From: Bactericera cockerelli
Taxonomy: Eukaryota > Arthropoda > Insecta > Hemiptera > Triozidae
Reading direction: 5' to 3'
Length of the DNA stretch: 64,000 bases
Assembly (NCBI GenBank): GCA_024516035.1
Contig: CM044963.1
Span: 30,692,403 to 30,756,402, forward strand
Shown piece after piece: positions 2,015 to 26,880 of this stretch (its first letter is position 1; each line of letters starts with the position of its first letter). The position numbers were made by a program, and so were the translations under genes. Below the pieces are notes generated by a model, which worked only from the letters and a program-made list of their open reading frames with translations, did no database searches and was not told where the DNA came from.

Positions 2015-2380
2015 TCAATGGTCGTACCTAAAATCGTTGAGCAACTTCCACAGGACCAAGTCGATGCATGCGCGCGCATCTTCGAAACTGTCATGCGTCC
2101 CGGACTGGATGCTTTGGTGCAGCAGCTGGGAGACAATGCTCTTCAGTGATCGCCTGTACGGCAGCCCGAACGCATGCGGGAAGAGCACGGAGGTGTCGAT
2201 AATGTTCGGGTGGAGGAGTTTGAGGGCGCGCAGGTCGTTTTCCAGCCCGTGACCCACGATGAGAGAGTCACGTGACACGAAGCCCATGAGGTCATTTTGG
2301 ACGTCACGCAGCGACTTGTAAGGGTTCTTGACGAAGTCCCGCGCCGAGATGCCGCTGTATTTGGTGTTGTAGTCGATGAT
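2015..2380 (-). CDS. REXO1: REXO1 last coding exon: exonuclease motifs II and III
   Basis: The exon has 121 codons plus a TGA stop (2015-2017), in phase 0 after the acceptor CTCCGCAG. The protein enters as IIDYNTKYSG, continuing the PDCE of the preceding exon exactly as in the REXO family. Exo II is visible in IVGHGLENDLRALK (catalytic Asp after Asn). Exo III is HDSFEDARACIDL, with His and Asp spaced as in the DEDDh subclass. DTSVLFPH and GLPYRRSLK are typical linking motifs of REXO/Rex-type nucleases. The C terminus is DFRYDH. GC content is far above the surrounding intron, as for the other exons. The acceptor just upstream is duplicated in a 35-bp tandem array. Confidence 0.95.
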   Translation of the reverse strand: MIDYNTKYSGISARDFVKNPYKSLRDVQNDLMGFVSRDSLIVGHGLENDLRALKLLHPNIIDTSVLFPHAFGLPYRRSLKSIVSQLLHQSIQSGTHDSFEDARACIDLVLWKLLNDFRYDH

Positions 2381-2684
2381 CTGCGGAGCGAAAGGTGTTG
2401 GGAATTAGTTATGATCTGGGGAGCGAAAGGTGTTAGGAATTAGTTATGATCTGGGGAGCGAAAGGTGTTGGGAATTAGTTATGATCTGGGGAGCGAAAGG
2501 TGTTAGGAATTAGTTATAATCTGGGGAGCGAAAGGTGTTAGGAATTAGTTATGATCTGGGGAGCGAAAGGTGTTGGGAATTAGTTATGATCTGGGGAGCG
2601 AAAGGTGTTAGGAATTAGTTATAATCTGGGGAGCGAAAGGTGTTAGGAATTAGTTATGATCTGGGGAGCGAAAGGTGTTTAGAA
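2376..2684 (-). repeat. tandem array of the last exon's 3' splice site (35-bp unit)
   Basis: Units start at 2376 (the real exon edge), 2411, 2446, 2481, 2516, 2551, 2586, 2621 and 2656, an exact 35-bp period. Read on the gene strand, each unit contains CCTTTCGCTCCCCAG followed by ATCATAAC or ATTATAAC. It thus repeats the pyrimidine tract, the AG and the first exon bases (ATCAT) of the real acceptor CCTTTCGCTCCGCAG|ATCAT. There are eight decoys upstream of the true site. The real site has CCGCAG where decoys have CCCCAG. Confidence 0.9.
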
Positions 2685-4125
2685 TTAGATTGAGAAGGTA
2701 ACATTATTTTAAAAAGCCAAACAAAAATGGCTTAGGATGGGTCAAAAAAGAAAAGGAAAATAAAACAAATGATTTGTTTAACGAAAAAAAAAACATTTGT
2801 AACTTTCTCTTCAAGCTACATCTCTGGGGAGTGAAGGGTGTTAGGAAATAGTTTGAAAGGTAACATTATCTTAAAAAGCCAAACAAAAATGGCTTAGGAT
2901 GGGTCAAAAAAGAAAAGGAAAAGAAAACAAATGATTTGTTTAAAGAAAAAAAGAAAAGAAAAAAAACATTTGTAACTTTCTCTTCAAGCTACATCTCTGA
3001 GGAGCGAAAGGTGTTAGGAATTAGATTGAAAGGTAACATTATCTTAAAAAGCCAAACAAAAATGGCTTAGGATGGGTCAAAAAAGAAAAGGAAAAGAAAA
3101 CAAATGATTTGTTTAAAGAAAAAAAGAAAAGAAAAAAATCTGGTGTAAACATCACACGACTTTCCTTATCTCCCAAAAAGGAGTCGAATTCCGCCACTGG
3201 TGACTGAACGGTAACAGATAACTAAAAATCAATGCCAAATTCGTGATCAGCACTTCAAAATCATTTAATTTGATATGTCACAACCCCCATCTAGGATGAA
3301 TAATAAAAAAGTTAGTCCAATCGGGTCCCCCTACAATACCGGTAAATTGGGGCCGGTTTCCAAAAAGTTAAAGATATCAAAAAAATGATCAGAGTGAACC
3401 CCTATTATTTTTTTAATTTGAGAAAATGTTGTTCTCTAACTTTTTTTGTATCTTTAACCAATTCAAAGAAGCGGTGCTTGCGGCCAATATTTGCGGCCCT
3501 GCGGCCGCAGAATGCGGCCGATTTCAACCAAAAGTTTCATGGTTCGTCTGGTGTATAAAATTAATTACCATGCCAAATTTCAAGTCTCTAGCTCTTACCG
3601 TTCTTGAGATATCCTGTTCACACACAGACACACACACAGACACACACACACACACACACAGACAGACGCACGGACCAATGGCTGAAAACCACTTTTTTGG
3701 TATCCTGAGGCTATGATTCGTCCAGAAATGTGAAAAGCTGGGTAGGTCAAATTTTCGACGAATACAATACTTTCCTTATTATAGGATAAGGAAAGTAAAA
3801 AACATTTGTAACTTTCTCTTCAAGCTACATCTCTGAGGAGCGAAAGGTGTTAGGAATTAGATTGAAAGGTAACATTATCTTAAAAAGCCAAACAAAAATG
3901 GCTTAGGATGGGTCAAAAAAGAAAAGAAAAAGAAAACAAATGATTTGTTTAAAGAAAAAAAGAAAAGAAAAAAAAACATTTGTAACTTTCTCTTCAAGCT
4001 ACATCTCTGAGGAGCGAAAGGTGTTAGGAATTAGATTGAGAAGGTAACATGATGTACATCTGTAGCTTTCTCTTCAGGGAACATATCTGGGGAGCGAAAG
4101 GTGTTGGGAATTAGATTGAGAAGGT
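2685..4125. repeat. A-rich ~176-bp tandem units carrying relic acceptor copies
   Basis: Units contain 'gaggagcgaaaggtgttagg', then 'attatcttaaaaagccaaac', then an A-rich purine tract. They begin near 2822, 2994, 3833 and 4009, with shorter relics near 4085 and 4425. They look like a second-order expansion of the 35-bp acceptor unit with captured intron sequence. One unit is split by the element at 3140-3795. Confidence 0.8.
3140..3795 (+). mobile_element. 656-bp interspersed element with 3' hairpin (Helentron/HINE-like?)
   Basis: It is nearly identical to 62192-62842. It starts CTGGTGTAAACATCACACG, carries ACTTTCCTTATC shortly inside, has an internal (CA)n-type tract and ends with a perfect 11-bp stem (ACTTTCCTTAT/ATAAGGAAAGT, loop TATAGG). 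It sits in an A-run that interrupts a 176-bp unit, so its limits are clear. A 5' subterminal repeat, a microsatellite core and a 3' stem-loop fit Helentron-associated elements, but no transposase or rolling-circle protein is present. The class is inference. Degenerate relatives are at 27890-28345, 43343-43404 (5' end, minus) and 50750-50850 (3' end). Confidence 0.75.
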
Positions 4126-4439
4126 AACATTAGACCTATTTTTCTTTTGGATTAAAAAAAAATTCTAGGTTCGATATTTCCATTTTACTCCAAAGTCAAC
4201 TTCGTCACATTCCTAAAAGAAAAATACGTTTCGGTATTTTTAAAGATAAACAATGGACTTAACCTATAAAAAGAACTGGAAGCAAGAATTTTCCTTACTT
4301 CCATTTTGGTTAAAAATGACTTGCTTCCAGTTTGGTTCATTTTATTCCCGTTTGGTTAACTTCGGTTAGAAAGAAAAATACGGCTTTTATGTACATCTGT
4401 AGCTTTCTCTTCAAGGAACATATTTGGGGAGCAAAAGAT

Positions 4440-4615
4440 TCTGTCCCAGTAGCTCAGTGGTCAAGGCATCTGTCCGGTAATCCAGAGGTCGCGCATTCGA
4501 AACCCATTCAGATCATGACAAATTATCCTCCCGTTCGGAAATTAAACCACATGATAATACGGCTTGGTCTCACTGCTGGAATATGGGACTCGTTCGTCCT
4601 AAGCGGGCAGTATAG
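4440..4615 (+). mobile_element. tRNA-headed SINE, family C
   Basis: The head is tRNA-like, with an A-box-like TAGCTCAGTGGTCAAGGC and a B-box-like GCATTCGAAACCC. It is followed by the family tail (catgacaaattatcctccc, then 'actgctggaata' and 'gggcagtata'). The same tail marks copies at 10245, 29500, 53011, 53705 and 57910. It is not a functional tRNA because the acceptor stem does not close. Confidence 0.75.
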
Positions 4616-4856
4616 TTCGTTTTCTGTGTATAGTCCTCTAGCGAGACACTGGTCTCGAAGTTAAGCGACATCCAGCGAGGTTATGACTTGGATGGGTGAC
4701 CATTCAAATTCTAATTCTCGTGACGCTGGCTTTTCCCGGCCCCACTCAGGCTGGGTGAGGTCCATGTGAGTAGCAGGTTTGTGAGTTTCCTGCGAATGGA
4801 GGGTAAAACCCCCGTCGTGATATGACCATGGTAGTTGAAAGCGACGTTAAACCCCA

Positions 4857-4888
<32 letters not shown>

Positions 4889-7143
4889 ACACTGGTCTTC
4901 CTCTGTGTATCTGTATAGTCCTCTAGCGAGACACTGGTCTTCTCTCTGTGTATAGTCCTCTAGCGAGACACTGGTCTTCTCTCTGTGTATAGTCCTCTAG
5001 CGAGACACTGGTCTTCTCTCTGTGTATAGTCCTCTAGCGAGACACTGGTCTTCTCTCTGTATATAGTCCTCTAGCGAGACACTGGTCTTCTCTCTGTGTA
5101 TAGTCCTCTAGCGAGACACTGGTCTTCTCTCTGTGTATAGTCCTCTAGCGAGACACTGGTCTTCTCTCTGTGTATAGTCCTCTAGCGAGACACTGGTCTT
5201 CTCTCTGTGTATAGTCCTCTAGCGAGACACTGGTCTTCTCTCTGTGTATAGTCCTCTAGCGAGACACTGGTCTTCTCTCTGTGTATAGTCCTCTAGCGAG
5301 ACACTGGTCTTCTCTCTGTATATAGTCCTCTAGCGAGACACTGGTCTTCTCTCTGTGTATAGTCCTCTAGCGAGACACTGGTCTTCTCACTGTGTATAGT
5401 CCTCTAGCGAGACACTGGTCTTCTCTCTGTGTATAGTCCTCTAGCGAAACACTGGTCTTCTCTCTGTGTATAGTCCTCTAGCGAGACACTGGTCTTCTCT
5501 CTGTGTATAGTCCTCTAGCGAGACACTGGTCTTCTCTCTGTGTATAGTCCTCTAGCGAGACACTGGTCTTCTCTCTGTGTATAGTCCTCTGGCGAGACAC
5601 TGGTCTTCTCTCTGTGTATAGTCCTCTAGCGAGACACTGGTCTTCTCTCTGTGTATAGTCCTCTAGCGAGACACTGGTCTTCTCTCTGTGTATAGTCCTC
5701 TAGCGAGACACTGGTCTTCTCTCTGTGTATAGTCCTCTAGCGAGACACTGGTCTTCTCTCTGTGTATAGTCCTCTAGCGAGACACTGGTCTTCTCTCTGT
5801 GTATAGTCCTCTAGCGAGACACTGGTCTTCTCTCTGTGTATAGTCCTCTAGCGAGACACTGGTCTTCTCTCTGTGTATAGTCCTCTAGCGAGACACTGGT
5901 CTTCTCTCTGTGTATAGTCCTCTAGCGAGACACTGGTCTTCTCTCTGTGTATAGTCCTCTAGCGAGACACTGGTCTTCTCTCTGTGTATAGTCCTCTAGC
6001 GAGACACTGGTCTTCTCTCTGTGTATAGTCCTCTAGCGAGACACTGGTCTTCTCTCTGTGTATAGTCCTCTAGCGAGACACTGGTCTTCTCTCTGTGTAT
6101 AGTCCTCTAGCGAGACACTGGTCTTCTCTCTGTGTATAGTCCTCTAGCGAGACACTGGTCTTCTCTCTGTTATAGTCCTCTAGCGAGACACTGGTCTTCT
6201 CTCTGTGTATAGTCCTCTAGCGAGACACTGGTCTTCTCTCTGTGTATAGTCCTCTAGCGAGACACTGGTCTTCTCTCTGTGTATAGTCCTCTAGCGAGAC
6301 ACTGGTCTTCTCTCTGTGTATAGTCCTCTAGCGAGACACTGGTCTTCTCTCTGTGTATAGTCCTCTAGCGAGACACTGGTCTTCTCTGTGTATAGTCCTC
6401 TAGCGAGACACTGGTCTTCTCTCTGTATATAGTCCTCTAGCGAGACACTGGTCTTCTCTCTGTGTATAGTCCTCTAGCGAGACACTGGTCTTCTCTCTGT
6501 GTATAGTCCTCTAGCGAGACACTGGTCTTCTCACTGTGTATAGTCCTCTAGCGAGACACTGGTCTTCTCTCTGTGTATAGTCCTCTAGCGAAACACTGGT
6601 CTTCTCTCTGTGTATAGTCCTCTAGCGAGACACTGGTCTTCTCTCTGTGTATGGTCCTCTAGCGAGACACTGGTCTTCTCTCTGTGTATAGTCCTCTAGC
6701 GAGACACTGGTCTTCTCTCTGTGTATAGTCCTCTGGCGAGACACTGGTCTTCTCTCTGTGTATAGTCCTCTAGCGAGACACTGGTCTTCTCTGTGTATAG
6801 TCCTCTAGCGAGACACTGGTCTTCTCTCTGTGTATAGTCCTCTAGCGAGACACTGGTCTTCTCTCTGTGTATAGTCCTCTAGCGAGACACTGGTCTTCTC
6901 TCTGTGTATAGTCCTCTAGCGAGACACTGGTCTTCTCTCTGTGTATAGTTATAGTCCTCTAGCGAGACACTGGTCTTCTCTCTGTGTATAGTCCTCTAGC
7001 GAGACACTGGTCTTCTCTCTGTGTATAGTCCTCTAGCGAGACCACTGGTCTTCTCTCTGTGTATAGTCCTCTAGCGAGACACTGGTCTTCTCTCTGTGTA
7101 TAGTCCTCTAGCGAGACACTGGTCTTCTCTCTGTGTATAGTCC
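4616..7143. repeat. 37-bp minisatellite, about 60 units
   Basis: The unit TAGTCCTCTAGCGAGACACT plus 'ggtcttctctctgtgta' is repeated almost perfectly. Rare variants recur in the same order in two blocks: TCAC at 5387 and 6531, GCGAAAC at 5444 and 6588, CTCTGG at 5591 and 6735, always 1144 bp apart. This indicates a block duplication of about 31 units. It grew from sequence beside the family C SINE tail and ends in a relic of a 5S-type SINE tail (7144-7185). It lies wholly in the last REXO1 intron. Confidence 0.95.
4656..4887 (+). mobile_element. 5S rRNA-derived SINE, 5'-truncated, with clean TSD
   Basis: It starts within the 5S-like head (CGAAGTTAAGCGACATCC, then 'gacttggatgggtgacc'), continues with the central domain (CCCACTCAGGCTGGGTGAGG) and the tail 'gaaagcgacgttaaacccc', and ends in 27 A residues. 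It is flanked by an 11-bp duplication, GACACTGGTCT (4645-4655 and 4888-4898), taken from the minisatellite unit. It therefore inserted after the minisatellite sequence existed. Confidence 0.93.
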
Positions 7144-7610
7144 CCCAGCAACACCTCGTCGTGATACAGTTAAAAGCAACGTTGAACCCTGAATTTATAA
7201 CAATTAATGGGGTTTTAACACCGCTTTAAACGCTGGGTTTCACCCTTTATTCGAGTGTGAAAGCCTTTTTTTCCCTTTTTTTTTCATCTCTGTTTACACG
7301 CAACAAGAATGCTGCAATTACGTAAACAGGTTTGAGGGACACTGCCTGCATACAGACTAAAGACCTATATCCTGGACCTCTCTACATCTTTGTTTAAATT
7401 TAAACCCTCCGCAGCCTGAGTGTGTTAGGTACTCTCACCAATAGAAGTCTTATATATTGTTCCTGTATATGTAACATGTTTAAATATTAAATAAAAGGGC
7501 TAGACCCATTTTCTTTTTTTTTTCGGTTTAACGGCGCTTTAACAAGGCGGTAGGCCTGTCGTTCACGCCGGTAGACCCATTTTATATTTTTTTTAAAAAG
7601 GTATTCTCAC
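7144..7610. other. intron remainder, no gene
   Basis: It holds a decayed SINE tail ('agttaaaagcaacgttgaac', 7170-7190), unclassified AT-rich sequence and a short 'ggtttaacggcgctttaac' fragment at 7522. Nothing coding is seen. Confidence 0.5.
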
Positions 7611-7801
7611 CTCACAGTCAGGTTTGACCAGCGTGTTGTAGATGAGTCTCCCGTCCACATTGACCACGGTCACGCGTGCCACCTCCAGCCCGTGCACCGT
7701 GTACACCATCTCCGTGTCCAGGGCGTACACGCCGTGCCCGTTAGGGGGCGGGGTCTTGCGGGGTTTCGTCTTCACGTAGCCTTCCAGTGGTCCGTTGATA
7801 C
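7611..7801 (-). CDS. REXO1: REXO1 exon: exonuclease motif I
   Basis: 191 bp, entering with two bases of a Gly codon and leaving in phase 0. The acceptor is CTCCCCTCAG and the donor GAG|GTGAGAAT. It encodes INGPLEGYVKTKPRK, then GHGVYALDTEMVYTVHGLEV, ARVTVVNVDGRLIYNT and LVKPDCE. ALDTEM is Exo I: the catalytic Asp and Glu are present, while the Cys usually found between them (DCEM) is Thr here. YTVHGLEVARVTVVN matches the family's YTTYGLELTRVTVVD type. LEGYVKT is the conserved lead-in to the nuclease. The exon is GC-rich in an AT-rich setting. Confidence 0.95.
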
Positions 7802-7861
7802 CTGAGGGGAGGAGGGGAGGGGCATGATTAGGTTAGTAACAGCATGGAAGACTAACTTGAC

Positions 7862-7923
7862 TAACCGACGCGACGCTTAGCCATGACTTGAGTTATAGAC
7901 TTTGTCTATTAATTTCTAACTTA
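7862..7923 (-). repeat. partial copy of the GGGCGGAATTAA MITE
   Basis: It contains 'accgacgcgacgcttagcc' and 'ttgtctattaatttct', matching one half of the MITE at 40097-40224. It lies in the 283-bp intron next to the donor array. Confidence 0.6.
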
Positions 7924-7932
7924 GTCCTGCGA

Positions 7933-8093
7933 GATGAACCACTCACCTGGTTTGAGATGAACCACTCACCTGGTTTGAGATGAACCACTCACCTGGTTTG
8001 AGATGAACCACTCACCTGGTTTGAGATGAACCACTCACCTGGTTTGAGATGAACCACTCACCTGGTTTGAGATGAACCACTCACCTGGTTTGA
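7933..8093 (-). repeat. tandem array of a 5' splice site, 7 x 23 bp
   Basis: Seven exact 23-bp units start at 7933, 7956, 7979, 8002, 8025, 8048 and 8071. On the gene strand each reads TCAAACCAGGTGAGTGG plus 'ttcatc', so each carries a full consensus donor CAG|GTGAGT. The first in transcription order is the real donor of exon 8085-8205 (KPG). The unit is not a multiple of three, so most downstream donors would shift the frame. Two extra units give a frame that meets TGA. Confidence 0.95.
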
Positions 8094-8205
8094 GTCCGGA
8101 CCACACGTGGAGCTTAGCGTACACACAGCCGAGTGTCTTGTATTGTTCCTCATTGCAGCAGGAGTAGATGCAGTTCTGAATGCCGTTGTTCCAGCTTTTA
8201 GTTAC
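8085..8205 (-). CDS. REXO1: REXO1 exon: Cys-rich segment before the nuclease domain
   Basis: 121 bp, phase 0 in and phase 1 out. The acceptor is CGACCCCTCAG and the donor CCAG|GTGAGT. It encodes VTKSWNNGIQNCIYSCCNEE, then QYKTLGCVYAKLHVWSGLKP. The CxxxCC...C spacing following the HYHWGK of the previous exon corresponds to the Cys/His region of REXO1 proteins (human has a similar YYHWG...CC...GC block). It is probably a metal-binding or structural segment, by inference. The donor forms the first unit of the 23-bp array. Confidence 0.93.
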
Positions 8206-8424
8206 CTGAGGGGTCGAAGAAAAAAACCAAAATGTTATTATTATCATTTAACACTTTATTGATCAACTACATGATAATTATATTCAACAAAATAGGATGA
8301 CATGAAAAAAAAAGAACAGAATAGAATATGTTGAAGTGAACCAAGGGGCGAGGTAAAAGCCCGTGGCTTTCTCTTCCACCGAACCCCATGTTATCTACAA
8401 GGTAATTCCAAAAAACAGATTGTG

Positions 8425-8630
8425 CACTGGTAGTGAAGTGTTTAACGCGCTAGTCTGGTAATCCAGGAAGCGTAGGGATCCGTTGGTTCGAATCTCACCC
8501 AGTGCATGAATTTTTCCTCATTAATTTGAGTTTGTGGCCACAAAATAATAAGAATCTGAGTGTTAGGTGTTAGAAAGTGCTTTAACCATTAACCTCACCT
8601 GGTGGTTACCTTCTACTAAAGAGTATTATT
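8425..8630 (+). mobile_element. tRNA-headed SINE, family B
   Basis: The head contains 'cgcgctagtctggtaatcc' and GTTGGTTCGAATCTCACCC. The body has 'cagtgcatgaatttttcct', and the 3' part 'ctggtggttacctt' runs into (ATT)n. The same family occurs at 35650, 42345 (minus), 43465 (minus), 49121, 53500 (minus) and 60911. Confidence 0.85.
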
Positions 8631-8849
8631 ATTATAAACAATACCATCTATACCCTTGGGTAATAAATAGTAAGTTAAAAAAATATGATCATATTTGTGC
8701 TTCTCACTTTCAAGAGGTCACAAATGGTCACAATTATTCAAACTCACACTCTTATGTTTTTACCCAACCTGGGACTCGAAGCACCGACATCTGGATTACC
8801 AGACCGAAATGAAGCCTTGATCACGGAGGAGCAACCGGGACTGACATGA

Positions 8850-9003
8850 CAAAGAAGACCGGATTATAAATCCGGATTAAAGTCAAGATTAAGCCAGATC
8901 CTCCCACAAATTGGAATTTCAACCAATCACAGCGCACTATGGCCTGACTTTAGAGACAGCCTGGCCCGTCTAAACACTAATCCAGTTTTATAGTTCGGTC
9001 CTT
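8850..9003 (-). repeat. short interspersed repeat (MITE-like)
   Basis: On the minus strand it begins GGACCGAACTATAAAACTGG and shares 'tttcaaccaatcacagcgca' (plus strand) with 48310-48350 and, in reverse, with 50862-50995. The opposite end (GGATTATAAATCCGG) is roughly inverted relative to the start. It is probably a non-autonomous DNA element. No coding sequence. Confidence 0.5.
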
Positions 9004-9092
9004 CATCTCCAATTCCTTCTTTTAGTAAATGCCACCAAGTTTAAAATTTTCTGGTTTTTTTCTGAAATAGACAAAAAGAAGTGATATCCCAC

Positions 9093-9250
9093 CTTTCCCC
9101 AATGATAGTGGCAGTGTTCCTGCGTCAAGTACTCGTAGTTGCCTTCCTGGCTTGCAGTTCTGTTGCTAGCGGTGCCTGGTGGCGACGACACCAAGTAGAA
9201 GCTCTTGTTACAACGAGCACAAATCTTCTCCTGTGCGTCTTCTTCTCGCT
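9093..9250 (-). CDS. REXO1: REXO1 exon: Cys/His (zinc-type) segment
   Basis: 158 bp, phase 1/2 in and phase 0 out. The acceptor is TTCTGTTCTATCAG and the donor GGAAAG|GTGGGA. It encodes EREEDAQEKICARCNKSFYL, then VSSPPG...NYEYLTQEHCHYHWGK. CxxC (CARC) followed by HCHYHWG matches the conserved CRCG...YLVS...CYYHWG block of REXO1 orthologues. The putative branch site CTAAC lies exactly where a MITE end meets the intron (see the mobile element at 9272). Confidence 0.94.
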
Positions 9251-9271
9251 CTGATAGAACAGAAAGAGTTA

Positions 9272-9728
9272 GGGCGGAATTAATAGACAAATTATCCATC
9301 ACAAGTCACTGCATGATCATATATCACAACGAGGGTTTTAGCCTCCATACGTTGGAAAATCACAAACCAGCTACTCAAATTAACCTCTCACTTAAATCTT
9401 AAAGTACCTAGTTACCGTTGCCGAGTGAGTTAGCGCGCAAGACATTGCACGCATGGTGACCAGGGTTCGATTCCCAGTGGGGCAGGAATTTTTCTGCTCT
9501 GTACTTAGATGTACGGGGTCCACTCATACCTCGTGATGAAAAATGAGAAGTGACTTGTATGAATAACGACATTACCAGAGTAAAAAAAAATAGTGTAATA
9601 GCTTCACCACAAATAAAATCATATAAGTATATTCTATGTAAATAAAACTTGATCCAATATGTTTAATAATACGCAATCCGTGACTTAGCGTCACAGAGGT
9701 ATTACAAAAACGTCTATTAATTCCGCCC
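9272..9728 (+). mobile_element. MITE split by SINE insertions, TTA target duplication
   Basis: The left end GGGCGGAATTAATAGACAAA is at 9272 and the right end GTCTATTAATTCCGCCC ends at 9728. TTA flanks both sides (9269-9271, 9729-9731). About 370 bp inside are foreign: a 5S-type SINE tail relic in reverse (about 9300-9390) and a family D SINE (9417-9560). The outer end lies only 21 bp from the exon 9093-9250 acceptor. Confidence 0.75.
9417..9560 (+). mobile_element. tRNA-headed SINE, family D
   Basis: The head is GCCGAGTGAGTTAGCGCGCA, the B-box region GGGTTCGATTCCCAGTGGGG, then the tail 'ggggtccactcatacctcgt' and 'gaaaaatgag'. Other copies are at 51157-51300 and, in reverse, 50305-50395. Tail-only or hybrid pieces lie at 18465, 26885, 27275 and 41100. 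Confidence 0.8.
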
Positions 9729-9739
9729 TTAATGTTGAT

Positions 9740-10240
9740 AAATAATAATTTTTGTAAAAGAATCTTTACAACAGAAGTATCTCAATAATATATTCTCAAT
9801 AATATATTGTAACACGAAGAATTCTTATTATAACAAGCATAATTTGTATTTATCATATATGAATTTCATTAAAAAATCAAAAAAAAAACCTGATTGAAAG
9901 TCTGCAAGACAATACAATAGAACTCCGATTTCATGAACCTATTGGAACCAAGGAAGTTCTTAAAATCAGGGTTGCATAGAAAGGAATCTCAAAACAATGT
10001 AGGTACCTGTATTATTAACATTTGTTCTTGCATATTAATTATTACCTATTATTCTAAGGTGAGGGAGGGTTTGAAGAAGTCATAAATTTCACTGCCGAGG
10101 TGAGACTAAAAAGTCACTTTATTTCAGCAGAATAAACAAGGTCATGTTTTTTTTTTCAAAATTAAACAGATATTTTGAACATACATTTACTATTATATAC
10201 ATAGAAAAAAACCTTCCTTAGGTTAGAAAAAATAAATTAT
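9740..10240. other. AT-rich intron sequence, no gene
   Basis: Unclassified, very AT-rich, with a small duplication ('ctcaataatatatt' twice near 9780). No gene or known repeat recognised. Confidence 0.5.
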
Positions 10241-10244
10241 AATA

Positions 10245-10445: not shown

Positions 10446-10469
10446 TAGATTAATTGTAATCTCTATATA

Positions 10470-11868
<1,399 letters not shown>

Positions 11869-12246: not shown

Positions 12247-12527
12247 CTTCGGGCGGCACATCGGGGCGCCACAGGACCTGCTGGTTCTGGAGCAGCCTCT
12301 TGTTGTGGCTCAGATTGTAGTGGTGGGCGTGGCCGGGGGCGTGGCCGGGGGAGGGGACGAACTCCCGGGCCTTGGGATCGAGTGTCTTCGGGTTGTATCG
12401 GCCGGGCGAGTAGATCACGGCCTTGTGGGCGTAGAACTTGGACTCGAACGGGAAGCTGAAGTTGATCAGCTGCTGCTGCGTCATCACGTAGTGGGACAGG
12501 TACTGTGGAGCTCGGCGTCCTTCAGGC
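12247..12527 (-). CDS. REXO1: REXO1 exon with a one-base frame break near its start
   Basis: The acceptor is GCTGACTCACAG|GCCTGAAG and the donor GAAG|GTGAGT. It encodes (G)LKDAELHKYLSHYVMTQQQ, then LINFSFPFESKFYAHKAVIY, SPGRYNPKTLDPKAREF and, later, LLQNQQVLWRPDVPPE. MTQQQLINFSFPFE corresponds to the LTPEQLRDNGYPF region of REXO1. As assembled it is 281 bp, one short of the 282 needed to stay in phase. Near 12502 it reads 'ggtactgtgg' where most decoy copies of this exon start read 'ggtacttgtgg'. Either the assembly dropped a base or the real exon is damaged. A Gly/His-rich insert (PGHAPGHAHH) is unusual. Confidence 0.87.
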
Positions 12528-13895
12528 CTGTGAGTCAGCACAAGCAGTACATTACATTACATATGTATTGTGAGTCAGCACAAGCAGTACATTACATTAC
12601 ATATGTATAAGTATATATATATATATATATATGGAAGCTGAAGTTGATCAGCTGCTGCTGCGTCGTCACGTAGTGGGACAGGTACTTGTGGAGCTCGGCG
12701 TCCTTCATGCCTGTGAGTCAGCACAAGCAGTACATTACATTACATATGTATTGTGAGTCAGCACAAGCAGTACATTACATTACATATGTATAAGTATATA
12801 TATATATATGGAAGCTGAAGTTGATCAGCTGCTGCTGAGTCATCACGTAGTGGGACCGTCTTTCATGCCTGTGAGTCAGCACAAGCAGTACATTACATTA
12901 CATTACATTACATATGTATATATATATATGGAAGCTGAAGTTGATCAGCTGCTGCTGCGTCATCACGTAGTGGGACAGGTACTTGTGGAGCTCGGCGTCC
13001 TTCATGCCTGTGAGTCAGCACGAGCAGTACATTACATTACATATATGGAAGCTGAAGTTGATCAGCTGCTGCTGCGTCATCACGTAGTGGGACAGGTACT
13101 TGTGGAGCTCGGCGTCCTTCATGCCTGTGAGTCAGCACAAGCAGTACATTACATTACATATGTATTGTGAGTCAGCACAAGCAGTACATTACATTACATA
13201 TGTATAAGTATATATATATATATATGGAAGCTGAAGTTGATCAGCTGCTGCTGAGTCATCACGTAGTGGGACCGTCTTTCATGCCTGTGAGTCAGCACAA
13301 GCAGTACATTACATTACATTACATTACATATGTATATATATATATGGAAGCTGAAGTTGATCAGCTGCTGCTGCGTCATCACGTAGTGGGACAGGTACTT
13401 GTGGAGCTCGGCGTCCTTCATGCCTGTGAGTCAGCACAAGCAGTACATTACATTACATATGTATATATATATATATATATGGAAGCTGAAGTTGATCAGC
13501 TGCTGCTGCGTCATCACGTAGTGGGACAGGTACTTGTGGAGCTCGGCGTCCTTCATACCTGTGAGTCAGCACAAGCAGTACATTACATTACATTACATAT
13601 GTATTGTATATATATATATATGGAAGCTGAAGTTGATCAGCTGCTGCTGCGTCATCACGTAGTGGGACAGGTACTTGTGGAGCTCGGCGTCCTTCATACC
13701 TGTGAGTCAGCACAAGCAGTACATTACATTACATTACATATGTATTGTATATATATATATATGGAAGCTGAAGTTGATCAGCTGCTGCTGCGTCATCACG
13801 TAGTGGGACAGGTACTTGTGGAGCTCGGCGTCCTTCATGCCTGTGAGTCAGCACAAGCAGTACATTACATTACATATGTATATATATATATATAC
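12528..13895 (-). repeat. tandem decoys: exon-start plus 3' splice site, nine copies
   Basis: Nine copies begin (plus strand 'atggaagctgaagttgatc') at about 12631, 12808, 12928, 13045, 13224, 13344, 13479, 13620 and 13761. On the gene strand each has TGCTGACTCACAG|GCATG followed by the first ~90 bases of exon 12247-12527 up to FSF, then breaks into (AT)n. Copies 2 and 5 share a deletion ('gggaccgtctttcatg'), and 12808/12928 recur at 13224/13344, giving a 416-bp higher-order duplication. Some gaps hold an extra 'gtgagtcagcacaagcagta' piece. The 275-codon plus-strand frame across it is antisense to these copies. Confidence 0.95.
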
Positions 13896-13984
13896 ATAGA
13901 TGTAAAAGCAGCACTTTCGACACTACATATAGGTTTGCAGCAGTTTCGACAAATCAGATTAAGGGATCCCAAACCATGGAATTC

Positions 13985-17689: not shown

Positions 17690-20600
17690 AAAGACATTTT
17701 AACTCAAGAAAAAGACCCCTGTGTAATAAACGGGTTAACTAATTTTTACCTACTATTTCGATCAGTACGAACTTGTGGATTGTGTGATATACCTGCTTAT
17801 CTCGCATACGAAATTGTATTACTCTAGCTAATACTGTTCTTGAGATATTGAGCAAAACGTTCATCAAAAGTGTTTTTGTCAAAAAAGTGGCACTTGGGTT
17901 AATTTGGCAGAAAATACGCGATATTATAAATTCATGTATTTGCCAAGACACTTCTAAAACAGTTTAGTTTGTTCAATTCGGACAAACCGTTCAAGAGATA
18001 GGTTTGTGAAAATTTCGAAGATATTGAAAATATCAGGTCAAGTCAAAACTTACGAATAATTGTCTCCATTTTGTAACTCTTGAAGAGATTTTTTTGACAT
18101 TTTCATGTCTTTGCTCTGGCACATAACCAAAATTATGTGACGAAATTGTGTAACGAAATTAAGTAACGATATTATGTAACGAAATATCGAATTGTAAAGG
18201 GAGAGAAGTCTTCTAATATCGGATATCGATATTATGGTTTCGATATTATCGATATACCTAATATCGATATTTTCGTTTCGATATTGCAACCCTAAGAGAA
18301 GAGGGAAAGTGTGTGTCATGCGCACAATACGAAATTTGGTCAGTTGGGTTTTGGACCTTGAATAGTAAAGATGAAAATGTCGAAATGGTTGCAGACTCGT
18401 ATGCAAGCGTTTTTTTAAACAAAAATTTAACATTGCTTTCAACTGCATGGTCACATCAGTAGACACCGTGGTAGAGTGAGTTAGCGCGCTAATCATTGAA
18501 CCCATGGTGACCTGGGTTCGATTCCCAGCGGGGTAGGAATTTTTTTTTTGAATTTTGAACTGAAGCTTGCTGGTGGCAAAAGGAGCCTTCAAGAATGGAT
18601 TGTAACACAATTTTGCATACCTGGTCTTACTTGAAGGGGTAATATGTTATTTAGACTCTTTCACTAGGCAAATCTCGTTCATGGTACCTTTTTTGAGAAA
18701 ATTTCCGAGAATATTTTTAATTTCTATTGAAAAAATACACATTTTATGTTCTCATATATTTTTTCTATCTTGAAGTATAACAAGACAGCAAAAAAGAAAG
18801 ACTCAAGAAAAAGATCCCTGTGTATAAACGGGTTAACCAATTTTTACCTATTATTTCGATCAGTACGTATTTTTTATTTGTGTTTTATACCTGCTAATTT
18901 CATCGACAAAATTTATTATTCTAGTTAATAATGATCTTGAGATATTGAGCAAAACGTTCATCAAAAGTGTTTTTGTCAAAAAAGTGACACTTGGGTTAAT
19001 TTGGCAGAAAATACGCGATATTATAAATTCATGTATTTGCCAAGACACTTTTAAAACAGTTTAGTTTGTTCAATTCGGACAAACCGTTCAAGAGATAGGT
19101 TTGTGAAATTTTCGAAGATATTGAAAATATCAGGTCAAGTCAAAACTTACGAATAATTGTCGCCATTTTGTAACTCTTGAAGAGATTTTTTTGAATTTTG
19201 AACTGAAGCTTGCTGGTGGCAAAAGGAGCCTTCAAGAATGGATTGTAACACAATTTTGCATACCTGGTCTTACTTGAAGGGGTAATATGTAATTTAGACC
19301 CTTTCACTAGGCAAATCTCGTTAATGGTACCTTTTTTGAGAAAATTTCCGAGAATATTTTTTATTTGTTTTGAAAAATACACATTTTATGTTCTCATATA
19401 TTTTTTCTATCTTGAAGTATAACAAGACTGCAATAAAATAAGGAAATTTTAACCCAAGAAAAGACGCCTGTGTATAAACGGGTTAACCAATTTTTACCTA
19501 TTATTTCGATCAGTACGTATTTTTTATTTGTGTTTTATACCTGCTAATTTCATCGACAAAATTTATTATTCTAGTTAATAATGATCTTGAGATATTGAGC
19601 AAAACGTTCATCAAAAGTGTTTTTGTCAAAAAAGTGACACTTGGGTTAATTTGGCAGAAAATACGCGATATTATAAATTCATGTATTTGCCAAGACACTT
19701 TTAAAACAGTTTAGTTTGTTCAATTCGGACAAACCGTTCAAGAGATAGGTTTGTGAAATTTTCGAAGATATTGAAAATATCAGGTCAAGTCAAAACTTAC
19801 GAATAATTGTCGCCATTTTGTAACTCTTGAAGAGATTTTTTTGAATTTTGAACTGAAGCTTGCTGGTGGCAAAAGGAGCCTTCAAGAATGGATTGTAACA
19901 CAATTTTGCATACCTGGTCTTACTTGAAGGGGTAATATGTAATTTAGACCCTTTCACTAGGCAAATCTCGTTAATGGTACCTTTTTTGAGAAAATTTCCG
20001 AGAATATTTTTATTTGTTTTGAAAAATACACATTTTATGTTCTCATATATTTTTTCTATCTTGAAGTATAACAAGACTGCAATAAAATAAGGAAATTTTA
20101 ACCCAAGAAAAGACGCCTGTGTATAAACGGGTTAACCAATTTTTACCTATTATTTCGATCAGTACGTATTTTTTATTTGTGTTTTATACCTGCTAATTTC
20201 ATCGACAAAATTTATTATTCTAGTTAATAATGATCTTGAGATATTGAGCAAAACGTTCATCAAAAGTGTTTTTGTCAAAAAAGTGACACTTGGGTTAATT
20301 TGGCAGAAAATACGCGATATTATAAATTCATGTATTTGCCAAGACACTTTTAAAACAGTTTAGTTTGTTCAATTCGGACAAACCGTTCAAGAGATAGGTT
20401 TGTGAAATTTTCGAAGATATTGAAAATATCAGGTCAAGTCAAAACTTACGAATAATTGTCGCCATTTTGTAACTCTTGAAGAGATTTTTTTGAATTTTGA
20501 ACTGAAGCTTGCTGGTGGCAAAAGGAGCCTTCAAGAATGGATTGTAACACAATTTTGCATACCTGGTCTTACTTGAAGGGGTAATATGTAATTTAGACCC

Positions 20601-22540
20601 TTTCACTAGGCAAATCTCGTTAATGGTACCTTTTTTGAGAAAATTTCCGAGAATTTTTTTATTTGTTTTGAAAAATACACATTTTATGTTCTCATATATA
20701 TTTTTTCTATCTTGAAGTATAACAAGACTGCAATAAAATAAGGAAATTTTAACCCAAGAAAAGACGCCTGTGTATAAACGGGTTAACCAATTTTTACCTA
20801 TTATTTCGATCAGTACGTATTTTTTATTTGTGTTTTATACCTGCTAATTTCATCGACAAAATTTATTATTCTAGTTAATAATGATCTTGAGATATTGAGC
20901 AAAACGTTCATCAAAAGTGTTTTTGTCAAAAAAGTGACACTTGGGTTAATTTGGCAGAAAATACGCGATATTATAAATTCATGTATTTGCCAAGACACTT
21001 TTAAAACAGTTTAGTTTGTTCAATTCGGACAAACCGTTCAAGAGATAGGTTTGTGAAATTTTCGAAGATATTGAAAATATCAGGTCAAGTCAAAACTTAC
21101 GAATAATTGTCGCCATTTTGTAACTCTTGAAGAGATTTTTTTGAATTTTGAACTGAAGCTTGCTGGTGGCAAAAGGAGCCTTCAAGAATGGATTGTAACA
21201 CAATTTTGCATATCTGGTCTTACTTGAAGGGGTAATATGTAATTTAGACCCTTTCACTAGGCAAATCTCGTTAATGGTACCTTTTTTGAGAAAATTTCCG
21301 AGAATATTTTTTATTTGTTTTGAAAAATACACATTTTATGTTCTCATATATTTTTTCTATCTTGAAGTATAACAAGACTGCAATAAAATAAGGAAATTTT
21401 AACCCAAGAAAAGACGCCTGTGTATAAACGGGTTAACCAATTTTTACCTATTATTTCGATCAGTACGTATTTTTTATTTGTGTTTTATAACTGCTAATCT
21501 CATAGACAAAATTTATTATTCTAGTTAATAATGTTCTTGGGATATTGAGCAAAACGTTCATCAAAAGTGTTTTTGTCAAAAAAGTGACACTTGGGTTAAT
21601 TTGGCAGAAAATACGCGATATTATAAATTCATGTATTTGCCAAGACACTTCTAAAACAGTTTAGTTTGTTCAAATCGGACACACCGTTCAAGAGATAGGT
21701 TTGTGAAAATTTCGAAGATATTGAAAATATCAGGTCAAGTGTAAACTTACGAATAATTGTCGCCATTTTGTAAATCTTGAAGAGATTTTTTTGAATTTTG
21801 AACTGAAGCTTGCTGGTGGCAAAAGGAGCCTTCAAGAATGGATTGTAACACAATTTTGCATACCTGGTCTTACTTGAAGGGGAAATATGTAATTTAGACC
21901 CTTTCACTAGGCAAATCTCGTTAATGGTACCTTTTTTGAGAAAATTTCGAGCATATTTTTTATTTGTTTTGAAAAATACACATTTTATGTTCTCATATAT
22001 TTTTTCTATCTTGAAGTATAACAAGACTGCAATAAAATAAAGAAATTTTAACCCAAGAAAAGACGCCTGTGTATAAACGGGTTAACCAATTTTTACCTAT
22101 TATTTCGATCAGTACGTATTTTTTATTTGTGTTTTATACCTGCTAATCTCATAGACAAAATTTATTATTCTAGTTAATAATGTTCTTGAGATATTGAGCA
22201 AAACGTTCATCAAAAGTGTTTTTGTCAAAAAAGTGACACTTGGGTTAATGTGGCAGAAAATACGCGATATTATAAATTCATGTATTTGCCAAGACACTTC
22301 TAAAACAGTTTAGTTTGTTCAAATTGGACACACCGTTCAAGAGATAGGTTTGTGAAAATTTAGAAGATATTGAAAATATCAGGTCAAGTGTAAACTTACG
22401 AATAAATGTCGCCATTTTGTAACTCCTTAAGAGATTTTTTTAAATTTTAAAGTGAAGCTTGCTGGTGGCAATAAGAGCCTTCAAGAATGAATTGTAACAA
22501 AATTTTGCATACCTGGTCATACTTGAAGGGGCAATAAGCA
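17690..22540. repeat. 650-bp satellite-like tandem array, seven units
   Basis: The landmark 'taaacgggttaac' recurs at 17725, 18820-, 19469-, 20118-, 20769-, 21419- and 22068-, a period of 649-651 bp (the first interval is stretched by an insertion). The middle units are almost identical; the outer ones are more diverged, as expected from central homogenisation. Each unit has two short minus-strand open frames (62 and 80 codons, beginning MSWQIHEFII and MYFSKQIKN) that lack recognisable domains. Each unit also has two motifs of the 'cttgagatatt'/'ccgttcaagagata' kind. Confidence 0.93.
18094..18545 (+). mobile_element. insertion in first 650-bp unit, ending in a family D SINE head
   Basis: The 650-bp unit is interrupted after 'gaagagatttttttga' and resumes at 'attttgaactgaagcttgc'. 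The inserted 450 bp has AT-rich 'gatattatcgatatac' palindromes. At 18465-18540 it has a tRNA-like block with GAGTGAGTTAGCGCGCTAAT and GGGTTCGATTCCCAGCGGGG. Confidence 0.7.
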
Positions 22541-23472
22541 TGCGCGGATATAGGGGGGGGCACGGGGGGCACGTGCCCCCCCCAGATTTTTTCGGTAAGC
22601 GGTGTTTCTTAAATTTCATTATACCTAATCCCGTAAAAAAAAAAGATCTCAATGAGTTAGGGGGGCACGGGCCCCAAAATAATTCCTAATTCTAAGACTA
22701 ATCCCGTAAAAAAAAGATCTCAATAAGTTAGAGGGGCACGGGCCCCAAAATAATTCCCAATTCTAAGACTAATCCCGTTAACAAAAAAAGATCTCAATAA
22801 GTTAGGGGGGCACGGGACCCAAAATAATTCCCAATTCTAAGACCAATAAGAAATAACTAAATAATAAAAATTTCAAATCCACACAGATTGTCCGAGAAAC
22901 CTGAAATTTTACCTATAGGTCCATTTGGATCAGGGTTCAGCTACACGGGGTAAGGACAAAAAAAGGATAGGTGACGCTAAAAAATCACATTTTTCGACCG
23001 AAATTACATTTTTTTTTTTAATTTATCGTGACGGTGCCACGGCGGCGGCGTATCAACTCAAAAAGAGAAAGTTTTAAGCAAGGGTTCAATTTTTCATTTG
23101 AGATATCAATCACGAAATTCTGATGAGCCGTTCTTGAGCTACGTTGAGTAAGGACATAAAATGGATGGGTAAACAAAAAGTATTTACGTTTTTTGACCTG
23201 AATGACATTTTTTCTCGAAATATGTCGTGATGAACTATCAACTCAAAGCGAGAATTTTTTTGCAAGGGTTGGAGTGTTCATTTGACATTCTGATGAGCCA
23301 TTCTTGAGCTCCAGTAAAGACAAGAAATTGATACAAAAAATATTGAAATTTGTGTGTGTATGTGTATGTGTGTGTGTGTCTGTGTGTGTGATAGGCTTGC
23401 GAAGCGGCTTGCTAGTTAGGTATATTGTGCGATTGTGCCCCCCCAGTACAAGAGGGCTATATCCGTGCATGA
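22541..23472. mobile_element. element with short inverted ends and poly-G/C runs inserted in last 650-bp unit
   Basis: The left end 'gcatgcgcggatataggg' and the right end 'gggctatatccgtgcatg' are inverted. Inside the left end is GGGGGGCACGTGCCCCCCCC. Next come three repeats with 'gggggcacgggcccc' and 'ttctaagactaatcccgt' (22610-22850), then 'ccgttcttgagctacg' modules and a short (GT)n. The 650-bp satellite resumes at 23500 ('ggcaaatctcgttaatg'), proving insertion. Confidence 0.65.
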
Positions 23473-23699
23473 TAATAAGACAGTAATGTTGACCATTTCA
23501 CAAGGCAAATCTCGTTAATGATACATTTTTTTAGAAAATTTCCCAGAATATAGTTTTGTTAATTTTCTGCGGATCACCGCAGTCAAGAAACGTCCAGCTT
23601 CGTGATAATCGTGATGCTGGCACTCTGGCCCAAACCAGGCTGGGTGAGGTTATTATGGCAAACAGGTTCTTTAGTTTCTTGCGAATGGTAGTTAAAATC

Positions 23700-23945
23700 G
23701 GACATGAATGCTTTAATATACATTGAGCAGCAGCACTTTGGACATGTCCAAAGTGCTTTAATATACATTGAGCAGCAGCACTTTGGACATGTCCAAAATG
23801 CTTTAATATACATTGAGCAGCAGCACTTTGGACATGTCCAAAGTGCTTTAATATACATTGAGCAGCAGCACTTTGGACATGTCCAAAGTGCTTTAATATA
23901 TATGCAGCAGCATTTTTTTGGACATGTCTAAAGTGCTTTAATATA
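23700..23945. repeat. palindromic tandem repeat, ~54-bp unit, five copies
   Basis: Each unit carries the perfect palindrome CACTTTGGACATGTCCAAAG plus 'tg', flanked by 'cagcag' and 'ctttaatatacattgag'. The single copy at 13990 and the diverged GTCGAAAGTGCTG relatives at 26180-26480 belong to the same sequence family. Confidence 0.88.
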
Positions 23946-24144
23946 ATTATGATATTACTAACTGTTACACCCAGTTAAAAAAGTAATAATATTTGAGGTA
24001 ATAATTATTATAATGACAGAAAAAAATAAATAAATAAGAAAATCAGTTTGTCACCGTGATTTATTTTCCAGAGCTACAATTAGTAATAATGTATTTCTAA
24101 AATAGAGTTAAATTTCGCTACTGGTAACGCTACTGGTAACCCAA

Positions 24145-24746
24145 CGATAACAGCTTCTATCGAGCTTCGTGATAATCGTGATGCTGATGGCACTCCGTCC
24201 CAACCTATGCTGGATGAGGTCGTTTGGGTAAAGTAGTTTTGTTAATTTTCAGTGTATCACCGCAGTCAAGTAACGTCCAGCTTCGTGATAATCGTGATGC
24301 TGGCACTCTGGCCCAAACCAGGCTGGGTGAGGTTATTATGGCAAACAGGTTCTTTAGTTTCCTGCGTATGGTAGTTAAAATCTCCGTCGTTATAATATGA
24401 TCATCCAGTTGAAAGCGACGTTAAACCAACAAAAATATACGAGTTAAGCAACGTCCACCGAGGTGAAGAATTCGAACCTTTTTTATAGTCAGCCTTTAGG
24501 TCGTGTAACTGAGACGTCTTGGATTCGATACCGCATCGTCTCATATTTTTTAATGTTTAACGATATAATAATAATAAAAGAAATGAGAAAAATAGGCATA
24601 AAAGACCGCCTAAATCACCCACCGGATATGAGGAACTTGGTTAATTCTTGATCCGGATTGGATTGAACGGAGGACATAATTGTACATTCATTTGCAGTTA
24701 TAACTTTTCCTCTTGAATACTTGTCACAATAATAATAATAATAGCC
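24145..24746 (+). mobile_element. composite SINE (second copy) with extra 5S-SINE fragments
   Basis: 24298-24746 matches 14341-14788 closely. It is preceded by shorter pieces with 'cttcgtgataatcgtgatgc' and 'cgcagtcaagtaacgtcc' (24145-24297), also found at 23565-23700. These are head and central parts of the 5S-type family. Confidence 0.75.
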
Positions 24747-25059
24747 GAAGACGGGCATACATTTCCTGTTATATAAAACAAGTTCCGTTCAAATTGGACA
24801 CCAAAAGGTGTCTGAAAGGCTGTCTGGGGTTAAGTAACACAGCCTTAACAAAAGAATCTCTAGAAATCTTTATAATGAAAGTTCAACCTGAGCCCTAAGA
24901 CTGTTCAATATAAGGCTGGGTGAGGTTACATAAAAAAAACATGGGTTTGATGGCAGAGATAGCCTCAGGCCATAACCACGCCTTTGTCAATATATTTCTT
25001 GTCAATAAAGAAATATTATTATTATATCCTTAAACATTAAAGCAAATGTGCTGATGCGG

Positions 25060-25830
25060 TATCGAATTAAGGACCTCTCTGTTACACGACCTCGTGACTG
25101 GACGTTGGTTAGCTTGTAATTGTTTTGTTGTTGGTTTAACGTCGCTTTCAACTGGATGATCATATCACGACGGAGATTTTAACTACCATTCGCAGGAAAT
25201 TATAACAAACCTGCTAGCTTCAATAACCTCACCCAGCCTGGGTTGGGCCAGCATCACGATTATCACGAAGCTGGACGTTACTTAACTTCGGTGATCCGCA
25301 GAAAATTAACAAAGCTACTACCCAAACAACCTCATCCAGCCTGGGTTGGGACGGAGTTCCAGCATCACGATTATCACGAAACTGGACGTTACTTAACTTC
25401 GGTGATACACATAAAATTAACAAAGCTACTATCCAAACAACCTCATCCAGCCTGGGTTGGGACCGAGTGCCAGTATCAAGATTATCACAAAGCTAGACGT
25501 TACTTAACTTCGGTGATCCGCAGAAAATTAACAAAGCTACTACCCAACAACCTCATCCAGCCTGGGTTGGGACGGAATTCCAGCATCACGATTATCACGA
25601 AGCTGGACGTTACTTAACTTCGGTGATACACAGAATATTAACAAAGCTACTACCCAAACAACCTCATGCAAAAATATTCTCTCGTTATGTAGGCTATTCC
25701 CGGCCCGACTCAGGCGAGGTGAGGTTCATCTGAGTAACAGGTTGATATGTTTCCTGCGAATGGGGCCGTAAAACTCTTTCGTGTTACAATACATAACCAT
25801 GAAGTTGAAAGCGACGTTAACGGTTAAATC
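25060..25830 (-). repeat. 5S-SINE-derived tandem, four ~110-bp units
   Basis: Reverse-oriented SINE pieces lead into four units that each contain 'gattatcacgaagctggac', 'gttacttaacttcggtgat' and 'cctcatccagcctgggttgg', starting about 25248, 25363, 25470 and 25580. The unit combines a 5S-like head fragment and the SINE central domain. A plus-strand SINE tail follows (25690-25820). Confidence 0.8.
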
Positions 25831-25924
25831 CGATTTAAAAATATTACTACGATTTATTAATACGATAGGTATTTGCCTAGTGGTACGCATAAATATTATA
25901 GTAGGTAGTGCTTTATTTAGACTG

Positions 25925-26070
25925 TCGGCTTGAAACAAGAAGTCCCATTACGCTAACAGTTTATGCATAGTAATTCTCGATCAGGACTATTGAGTCCCAT
26001 TAATTTAGCAGTAAGCCCGAGACGTATTAAAATCTTCTAAAAATCATATTAATCGGAGGCTAACTTGTCA
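25925..26070 (-). mobile_element. decayed family C SINE
   Basis: It contains 'aggactattgagtcccatta', 'gcagtaagcccgagacg' and 'aacttgtcatgttatctcg', the reverse of the family C tail and head boundary. The head itself is lost. Confidence 0.6.
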
Positions 26071-26179
26071 TGTTATCTCGGCCAGGTTGTAGGCCATAGA
26101 AAGCAAAAATTAGAATAACAAAATATAATAATGTATCACTTTTAAAATAAATACTTGCGTCTATCAGATGAGATTGGTA

Positions 26180-26485
26180 AGAACGCAGTACATTGGACTT
26201 GTCGAAAGTGCTGGATCGTTATAAGATTTTCTACAAAATAATCTGCCTCGTACGTATCAAATAAACACGGGCAAATTAAGGAGTGAACACATCAAAGGAG
26301 AATATTTTGAGACACAATGAAAAACGCCTGTCGAAAGTGCTGCAATCTTATATGTAATACCTGAGGAAACTGCTGCTTTCTTACCTGTCACAGCATCACT
26401 TTCGACGCGTCGAAAGTGCTCCGCCTGAAGTCCAAAGTGCTGTTGTGACAGGTAAGAAAACGTCGAAAGTGCTGCTTTTAGAACA
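26180..26485. repeat. GTCGAAAGTGCTG inverted-repeat cluster
   Basis: Several copies of GTCGAAAGTGCTG in both orientations, including the palindrome CTTTCGACGCGTCGAAAG at about 26399, plus 'gacaggtaagaaa' in both orientations. The right edge ('gtcgaaagtgctgctttta') is the reverse complement of the sequence just right of the first decoy cluster (13897-13917). Confidence 0.7.
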
Positions 26486-26488
26486 ATA

Positions 26489-26880
26489 TATATGGAAGCT
26501 GAAGTTGATCAGCTGCTGCTGCGTCATCACGTAGTGGGACAGGTACTTGTGGAGCTCGGCGTCCTTCATGCCTGTGAGTCAGCACAAGCAGTACATTACA
26601 TTACATATGTATATATATATATGGAAGCTGAAGTTGATCAGCTGCTGCTGAGTCATCACGTAGTGGGACAGGTACTTGTGGAGCTCGGCGTCCTTCATGC
26701 CTGTGAGTCAGCACAAGTAGTACATTACATTACATTACATTACATATATATATATATATATGGAAGCTGAAGTTGATCAGCTGCTGCTGCGTCATCACGT
26801 AGTGGGACAGGTACTTGTGGAGCTCGGCGTCCTTCATGCCTGTGAGTCAGCACAAGCAGTACATTACATTACATTAGTAG
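26489..26880 (-). repeat. second cluster of exon-start/acceptor decoys, three copies
   Basis: Copies start at 26492, 26621 and 26760 with the same sequence as the 12.5-13.9 kb array: exon start, CTGACTCACAG acceptor, 'acattacatt' spacer and (AT)n. They lie in the same intron, only about 600 bp downstream of the 27479-27640 exon donor. They are therefore the first intact acceptor copies transcribed after that exon. Confidence 0.94.

Follow-up and report, generated by a model that had tools for sequence, protein, structure and literature searches.

The 64,000-nt window analysed here (Bactericera cockerelli, assembly GCA_024516035.1, contig CM044963.1, positions 30,692,403 to 30,756,402; coordinates below are those of the window unless a contig is named) carries on its minus strand the gene REXO1, three of whose splice junctions are spanned by tandem arrays made of copies of the junction itself. 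Arrays of the donor kind recur across the genome. The gene is identified by a Pfam match to RNase_T (4.1e-11, exons Eg and Eh joined) and by 439 homologues; among the 120 matches listed, those named are arthropods, mostly insects, and identity reaches 55% along part of the query and 50% along its full length. A second Pfam match, to EloA-BP1 (1.3e-4), falls under its curated cut-off. Using splice consensus and an open frame as criteria, we placed eight exons with 15 junctions on the minus strand, where a reading of the sequence alone (henceforth the sequence-only reading) had counted nine exons: Ea (30826–31081) and Eb (28490–28653), placed by frame and splice consensus; Ec (27479–27640), Ed (12247–12527), Ee (9093–9250), Ef (8085–8205) and Eg (7611–7801), placed by consensus, frame and homology; and the last exon Eh (2016–2380), which encodes the C-terminus of the RNase_T exonuclease and is backed in addition by the Pfam match. 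Exons Ec to Eh agree with the insect homologues. All three junction arrays described in that reading were recovered, including the 23-bp units with seven sites at the 8.1-kb exon and the 35-bp units with nine sites at the last exon.

Array 2 (7931–8094, minus strand) lies at the donor of exon Ef, the end of the exon being its first donor. It is built of a 23-bp unit, AAACCAG/GTGAGTGGTTCATCTC (the slash marks the junction), with 10 exon and 13 intron nt; the units match at 100%, the seven donors all read CAG/GTGAGT, and the boundary unit is identical to the inner ones. Within the REXO1 span, words of the form MAG/GTRAGT occur only at these donors and at the donor of exon Ed, and the exact unit has seven matches genome-wide, all at REXO1. 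Only the first, exon-attached donor (1 of 7) keeps the reading frame open, the inner donors leading to premature stops. The Ef–Eg intron measures 283 nt with the six extra units and 145 nt without them.

Array 1 (2376–2688, minus strand) comprises 8.9 copies of a 35-bp unit with nine acceptors (2380–2660) at the start of exon Eh. Each unit contains a branch-like aactaat, a pyrimidine-rich tract, the AG and five exon bases, and the unit variants follow, by eye, a three-unit pattern. The exon-attached acceptor reads CTCCGCAG and the eight inner acceptors read CTCCCCAG. To the nine sites already noted, an extension in longer units of 173 and 80 bp (2689–4130, minus strand) adds five diverged acceptor copies, the exon-like sides of which start at 2823, 2996, 3832, 4006 and 4086. 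Acceptor 2380 is the only one of the 14 that stays open; the 13 upstream of it lead to an early stop.

Array 3, at the acceptor of exon Ed, has a local part (12451–13902, minus strand), in which each repeat joins roughly the first 77 nt of the exon to its acceptor and a (TA)n/tacat spacer, giving 10 acceptors including the exon's own, and a distant part (26486–26874, minus strand) with three acceptors, each with an open coding piece. The 13 acceptors are thus the exon's own, nine local and three distant ones, as the sequence-only reading had it; the distant copies, however, probably belong to the same array, split by an insertion. The two parts lie about 12.6 kb apart, the segment between them is bounded by a perfect 19-bp inverted repeat (13903–13921 and 26462–26480), and its flanks, when brought together, look like an ordinary unit spacer; no target-site duplication was seen by eye around the insert. 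Ten of the 12 extra exon pieces read GMKDAELHKYLSHYV and can be aligned to homologues, and the other two have a 19-nt deletion in common. The exon-attached piece, which forms the first 76 nt of exon Ed, has two private differences from the other units: it encodes L, as do most aligned homologues, where the inner units encode M, and its unit (12452–12527) lacks 1 nt relative to the remaining full-length units. A diverged single unit (27316–27376, minus strand) lies between two copies of the 3′ end of a short interspersed element (SINE; 27276–27417), as if placed by template switching. We rejected an origin of the array 3 acceptor from this element, since the similarity of the SINE at 9405–9610 to the 27.3-kb remnant is confined to the sequence flanking the unit and does not extend to the unit itself. 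The claim that the units are anchored on real junctions and keep the splice consensus holds for 7/7 donors in array 2 and for 9/9 and 13/13 acceptors in arrays 1 and 3, in scans that searched for the signal, so that units lacking it would escape.

The sequence-only reading had also held three such cases to be hard to ascribe to chance, which is too strong for REXO1 alone. Tandem arrays with a period of at least 10 make up 38% of the REXO1 span, 21% of the window and 10.9% of 200 kb sampled elsewhere (20 stretches of 10 kb on contigs C1, C2, C5 and C9, two with runs of N). When 21 arrays of the gene were placed at random without a limit on coding overlap (the test dropped one exonic array), 2.4 were expected to span junctions and the probability of at least three was 0.43; limiting the coding overlap to 200, 100, 80 and 40 bp gave 0.21, 0.03, 0.02 and 0.005. 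For the 11 arrays of at least 100 bp, the value was 0.37 without a limit and 0.16, 0.011, 0.006 and 0.0007 with the same limits. With a limit of 10 bp the value is zero after rounding, but the coding overlap of array 3 itself is larger than the two strictest limits (40 and 10 bp) allow. Because the outcome depends on the null and tandem repeats cover 38% of the span, REXO1, which was chosen as odd-looking, is weak evidence when taken alone; chance could account for its arrays, and we draw no proof from the placement test.

The sequence-only reading had proposed a genome-wide scan for junction-spanning repeats; run in motif form, it revealed the 5′ splice-site word to be strongly over-represented in tandem. 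We scanned 565,017,811 bases in 1032 contigs, counting each pattern against the same pattern read backwards. Three copies of CAGGTRAGT with gaps of 10–40 (19–49-bp spacing) matched 2914 times (1381 + 1533), as against 42 (22 + 20) for the reversed word. Triples of a permuted word, CAGTGRAGT, numbered 28, with 11 of the 28 places belonging to one dispersed element, and those of its reverse 222. Triples of CAGGTAAGT only numbered 558 versus 6 reversed, and the two-copy donor pattern 3629 versus 84. The donor word itself is not commoner than its reverse (18,223 versus 21,119 single words, these two being the words counted singly). Subtracting three-copy from two-copy matches yields about 715 donor runs versus 42 control runs, that is, runs at 4.9% versus 0.20% of loci, or an approximately 25-fold difference; 4344 of the 18,223 donor words (24%) lie inside tandem runs, as against 126 of 21,119 reversed words (0.6%). 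Runs outnumber arrays, since one mutated unit splits an array: among the matches listed, the first 15.7 Mb of contig C1 hold five arrays in 11 runs, which scales to roughly 300 donor arrays in the genome. The 200-kb sample contained no triple of the donor or the reversed word. Chance is excluded genome-wide for the donor word.

The exon side was inspected at all 13 array places among the matches listed for the triple donor pattern and for CAGGTAAGT. Nine of these (L028–L032, L046, L050, L051, L052) show an upstream acceptor, judged by eye, and an open reading frame that ends at the first donor. Three of the exons are confirmed by domains, namely Rap_GAP (1.1e-30, L032), Ldl_recept_b (2.1e-11, the LDL-receptor class B exon of L052) and RING (1.2e-08, L050). 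The short exon of L029 is the weakest case, L030 and L031 are paralogous, and L051 resembles, by eye, a first exon encoding a signal peptide. The 13 places represent nine unit families, and in eight of these the unit derives from the terminal part of the exon that it adjoins. The same 34-bp donor array occurs in differing copy numbers at two paralogous loci (C1:14825184–14826250 and 14985467–14987380) separated by about 160 kb. At L046 (C1:27895341–27896000), a T-run and an element-like insertion lie between the exon's own donor and the rest of the array.

The intron parts of 11 units, including those of REXO1 and of a cadherin-like exon described below, measure 5, 5, 6, 6, 7, 8, 11, 13, 14, 36 and 39 nt. 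Six of them are at most 8 nt long, which places the breakpoint at +5 to +8, where 1.75 would be expected for evenly spread breakpoints (P = 0.003, in a post hoc test that includes the ambiguous L047 and, for L031 and L046, uses the unit variant nearest the exon). U1 pairs with about −3 to +6 of the donor. By eye, the exon side and the intron side of an array have short stretches of bases in common: TGGT (L028/L042), TC (L029/L043), AA (L030/L044) and, at both edges of array 2 of REXO1, CTC.

Eight arrays of the acceptor pattern TTTTNCAG were inspected with their flanks, again among the matches listed. Five have no exon by eye (L033, L034, L039, L040, L041), two lie at exons (L037, without a Pfam match, and L038, matching a DOCK6 chain at 9.3e-07), and the remaining one (L035/L036, C2:1058901–1060200) is made of donor sites and adjoins a cadherin-like exon (Cadherin 0.0022, under its curated cut-off). 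Both ends of this last exon are affected: a 49-bp donor array adjoins the 3′ end, and at the 5′ end the acceptor is duplicated together with the beginning of the exon. The array units also include TTTTTACAG ahead of a stretch of about 20 nt that runs up to the donor, so that each resembles a tiny exon with both splice sites.

The sequence-only reading knew of no named feature class for such arrays; one had in fact been named in lancelets. The "mirages" of these animals, as described in the excerpts of the two reports drawn on here (PMC3087553, PMC3902484), are minisatellite-like tandem duplications of exon–intron boundaries with units of 10–160 bp, found in Adh3, the globins BflGb6 and BflGb9, PGBD5 and troponin C, and reverse-transcription PCR suggests that they leave splicing undisturbed. 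Like the REXO1 arrays, they occur at either exon end, keep AG or GT in many units and evolve in concert with the boundary unit excluded. In REXO1, the units of arrays 1–3 span an exon–intron boundary and keep AG or GT; both kinds of boundary are affected, by one donor and two acceptor arrays, as both ends are at the L035 exon; and the inner units are alike with the boundary unit apart in arrays 1 and 3, array 2 showing no such difference. The arrays differ from lancelet mirages in their arthropod host, in the presence of three in one gene, in their genome-wide occurrence and bias to the 5′ splice-site word, and in being known from DNA alone.

Other systems are less close. Tandem alternative splice sites of the NAGNAG type likewise present several competing sites per junction, with two AGs lying within about 12 nt and sharing one branch site; here the sites are spaced by 23–183 nt (35 nt between the acceptors of array 1, 117–183 nt in array 3), there are up to 13 near-identical copies, and the inner sites lead to early stops. 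Intron gain at AG/GT proto-splice sites under the Rogers model, with its Drosophila cases, also proceeds by local tandem duplication carrying splice signals, as an excerpt of PMC2891723 has it; here, by contrast, existing boundaries are multiplied, and no new intron position is shown. Internal tandem repeats at human exon–intron boundaries can be variable and alter introns, as here, although they concern genes in segmental duplications and no donor excess is reported in the excerpt consulted (PMC2812944). For earthworm genes, the excerpt of PMC12783039 gives intronic minisatellites and no junction arrays. We found no report of donor arrays outside lancelets in the literature searched, a weak absence, as part of the search used rare phrases. 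Boundary arrays as such were thus already known; new here are the arthropod host, the genome-wide scale and the strong bias to the 5′ site.

We consider it probable that the REXO1 arrays are mirage-like boundary minisatellites, that the genome holds several hundred tandem donor-word runs, the REXO1 donor array among them, and that both survival and recurrent mutation lie behind them. The donor bias implies a large advantage, in origin or in survival, for short tandem duplications that include a 5′ splice site over those that do not; preferential survival combined with recurrent mutation at exon ends is the most likely cause, and a donor-specific mutational process ranks next. A short tandem duplication across the junction would arise between microhomologies of 2–4 nt, one within the end of the exon, the other close behind the junction in the intron, and the sharing of 2–4 nt at the edges of four arrays fits this step. 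The repeat would then grow and be homogenised by unequal exchange or slippage, which is supported by the alike inner units and deviating boundary units of arrays 1 and 3. It would be tolerated if the outermost, exon-attached site still defined the exon and the extra copies left with the intron. Excerpts of a human study (PMC9225289) report that equally strong competing donors in long introns tend to resolve to the exon-proximal one, that minigenes whose introns measure 365 nt, given identical strong donors, use this site exclusively, that the intron-proximal donor is preferred in introns below about 250 nt, and that at acceptors an upstream preference is only reduced under exon definition.

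Several results weigh against this account. The human donor rule may not hold in arthropods, the 283-nt Ef–Eg intron sits near the 250-nt switch, and the upstream preference at human acceptors leaves arrays 1 and 3 not clearly explained by that rule. The 1-nt shortening of the exon-attached copy in array 3 shifts the frame from Ec to Ed in the assembly; polymorphism, a sequencing or assembly error, or the use of another AG could each explain it, and rescue by another unit or a nearby AG is possible on paper. One control, with 222 matches, lies far above the others, so that, depending on the control, the excess is about 13- to 100-fold. All 13 inspected donor places are on contig C1. Among them, L047–L049, one family, are ambiguous, as a stop falls between their exon-like reading frame and the donor; L053, a further array built of the L052 unit, adjoins no exon; at L030 and L046 most of the array is set apart from the exon's own donor by intervening sequence of another kind; and in the Pfam scan, which among the nine places with exons covered L028, L030–L032, L046, L050 and L052, the exons of L028, L030/L031 and L046 had no match, L028 having no PDB match either. 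Finally, acceptor triples show no excess genome-wide for either of two patterns, TTTTNCAG (451 versus 560 in the control) and CTTTNCAGG (20 versus 63), compared by triple counts over unit lengths of about 20–50 bp with weak motifs, neither of which matches the two acceptor arrays of REXO1. The process suggested in the sequence-only reading, one that preferentially duplicates exon–intron boundaries, therefore finds support at donors, in the word excess and in the exon context of 9/13 places, and none in the two acceptor patterns.

These data bear unequally on the alternatives. That arrays form anywhere in a repeat-rich genome and some happen to cover junctions is compatible with the 38% cover and the 2.4 spanning arrays (P = 0.43) expected in REXO1; the roughly 25-fold difference between donor and reversed-word loci refutes it for the donor word while it stands for the acceptors, and as an overall explanation we regard it as unlikely. 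Survivorship only, by which duplications are common in GC-rich exon ends and carriers of a donor survive since the first donor cuts the copies off, is a serious possibility, though less likely than not: six of the 11 units have an intron part of 5–8 nt with the remainder exon sequence, but survivorship predicts acceptor arrays too, and their lack of excess, not decisive with motifs so weak, implies that simple survival, which should serve both junctions, falls short of a full explanation. A donor-specific mutational process, such as co-transcriptional structures over the 5′ splice site that seed duplications, would produce bias at donors without bias at acceptors and the clustering of intron-side breakpoints at +5 to +8; five of the 11 units, however, have 11–39 intron nt, and the breakpoint test is post hoc with hand-picked unit variants. 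We know of no mechanism for donor-specific duplication and hold this process to be possible but doubtful. In its most specific form, which we put forward tentatively, a 5′-splice-site-specific process would seed exon-end duplications with the breakpoint often behind the U1-pairing GTRAGT, about one in 20 perfect donor loci would be a run of decoy donors, and acceptors would not be its target.

Selection for redundant donors, whether for junction buffering, U1 recruitment or regulated unproductive splicing, could draw on the perfect and identical donors of array 2 and on premature stops at inner sites that could regulate dosage; recent identical units need no selection, however, and lancelet mirages are reported to leave splicing undisturbed (excerpts of PMC3087553 and PMC3902484), making it an improbable cause. 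A dispersed mobile or satellite family carrying CAGGTRAGT by accident would explain why units recur on C1 at 14.83/14.99 Mb, 29.18/29.31/29.42 Mb and 45.461/45.467 Mb, yet the 13 places resolve into nine unit families, eight of them derived from the exon end that they adjoin, so we give this idea very little credence. The same holds for an assembly artefact: the 1-nt frame-breaking difference in array 3's exon-attached copy hints at one, while the long contigs (C1 is 65 Mb), the patterned unit differences and the many loci speak against it.

With so many near-identical donors lined up in arrays at the ends of exons, this genome offers a natural experiment on the spliceosome's choice between equivalent sites. 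The arrays also bear on the ways in which intron boundaries shift or become multiplied, and on the reasons why duplications cluster where exons end. Were the donor bias mutational in origin, it would point to a hitherto unknown link between splice sites and DNA rearrangement. For gene annotation the arrays are a warning that the ends of exons are easy to call wrongly in this genome.

Further repeats lie within and around the gene. An array at 31153–31322 was considered as a fourth junction array and rejected, since it sits in the intron that precedes exon Ea, some 70 bp away from the junction and clear of it. The last intron holds a 37-bp minisatellite of 60 copies (98% matches, 4912–7143) away from any junction, and the Ec–Ed intron a 649-bp unit repeated 6.2 times (18543–22536), which is outside scans limited to a period of 500. 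At 54123–56049, the window contains long open reading frames that resemble, by eye, a reverse transcriptase, with an RNase H-like part downstream.

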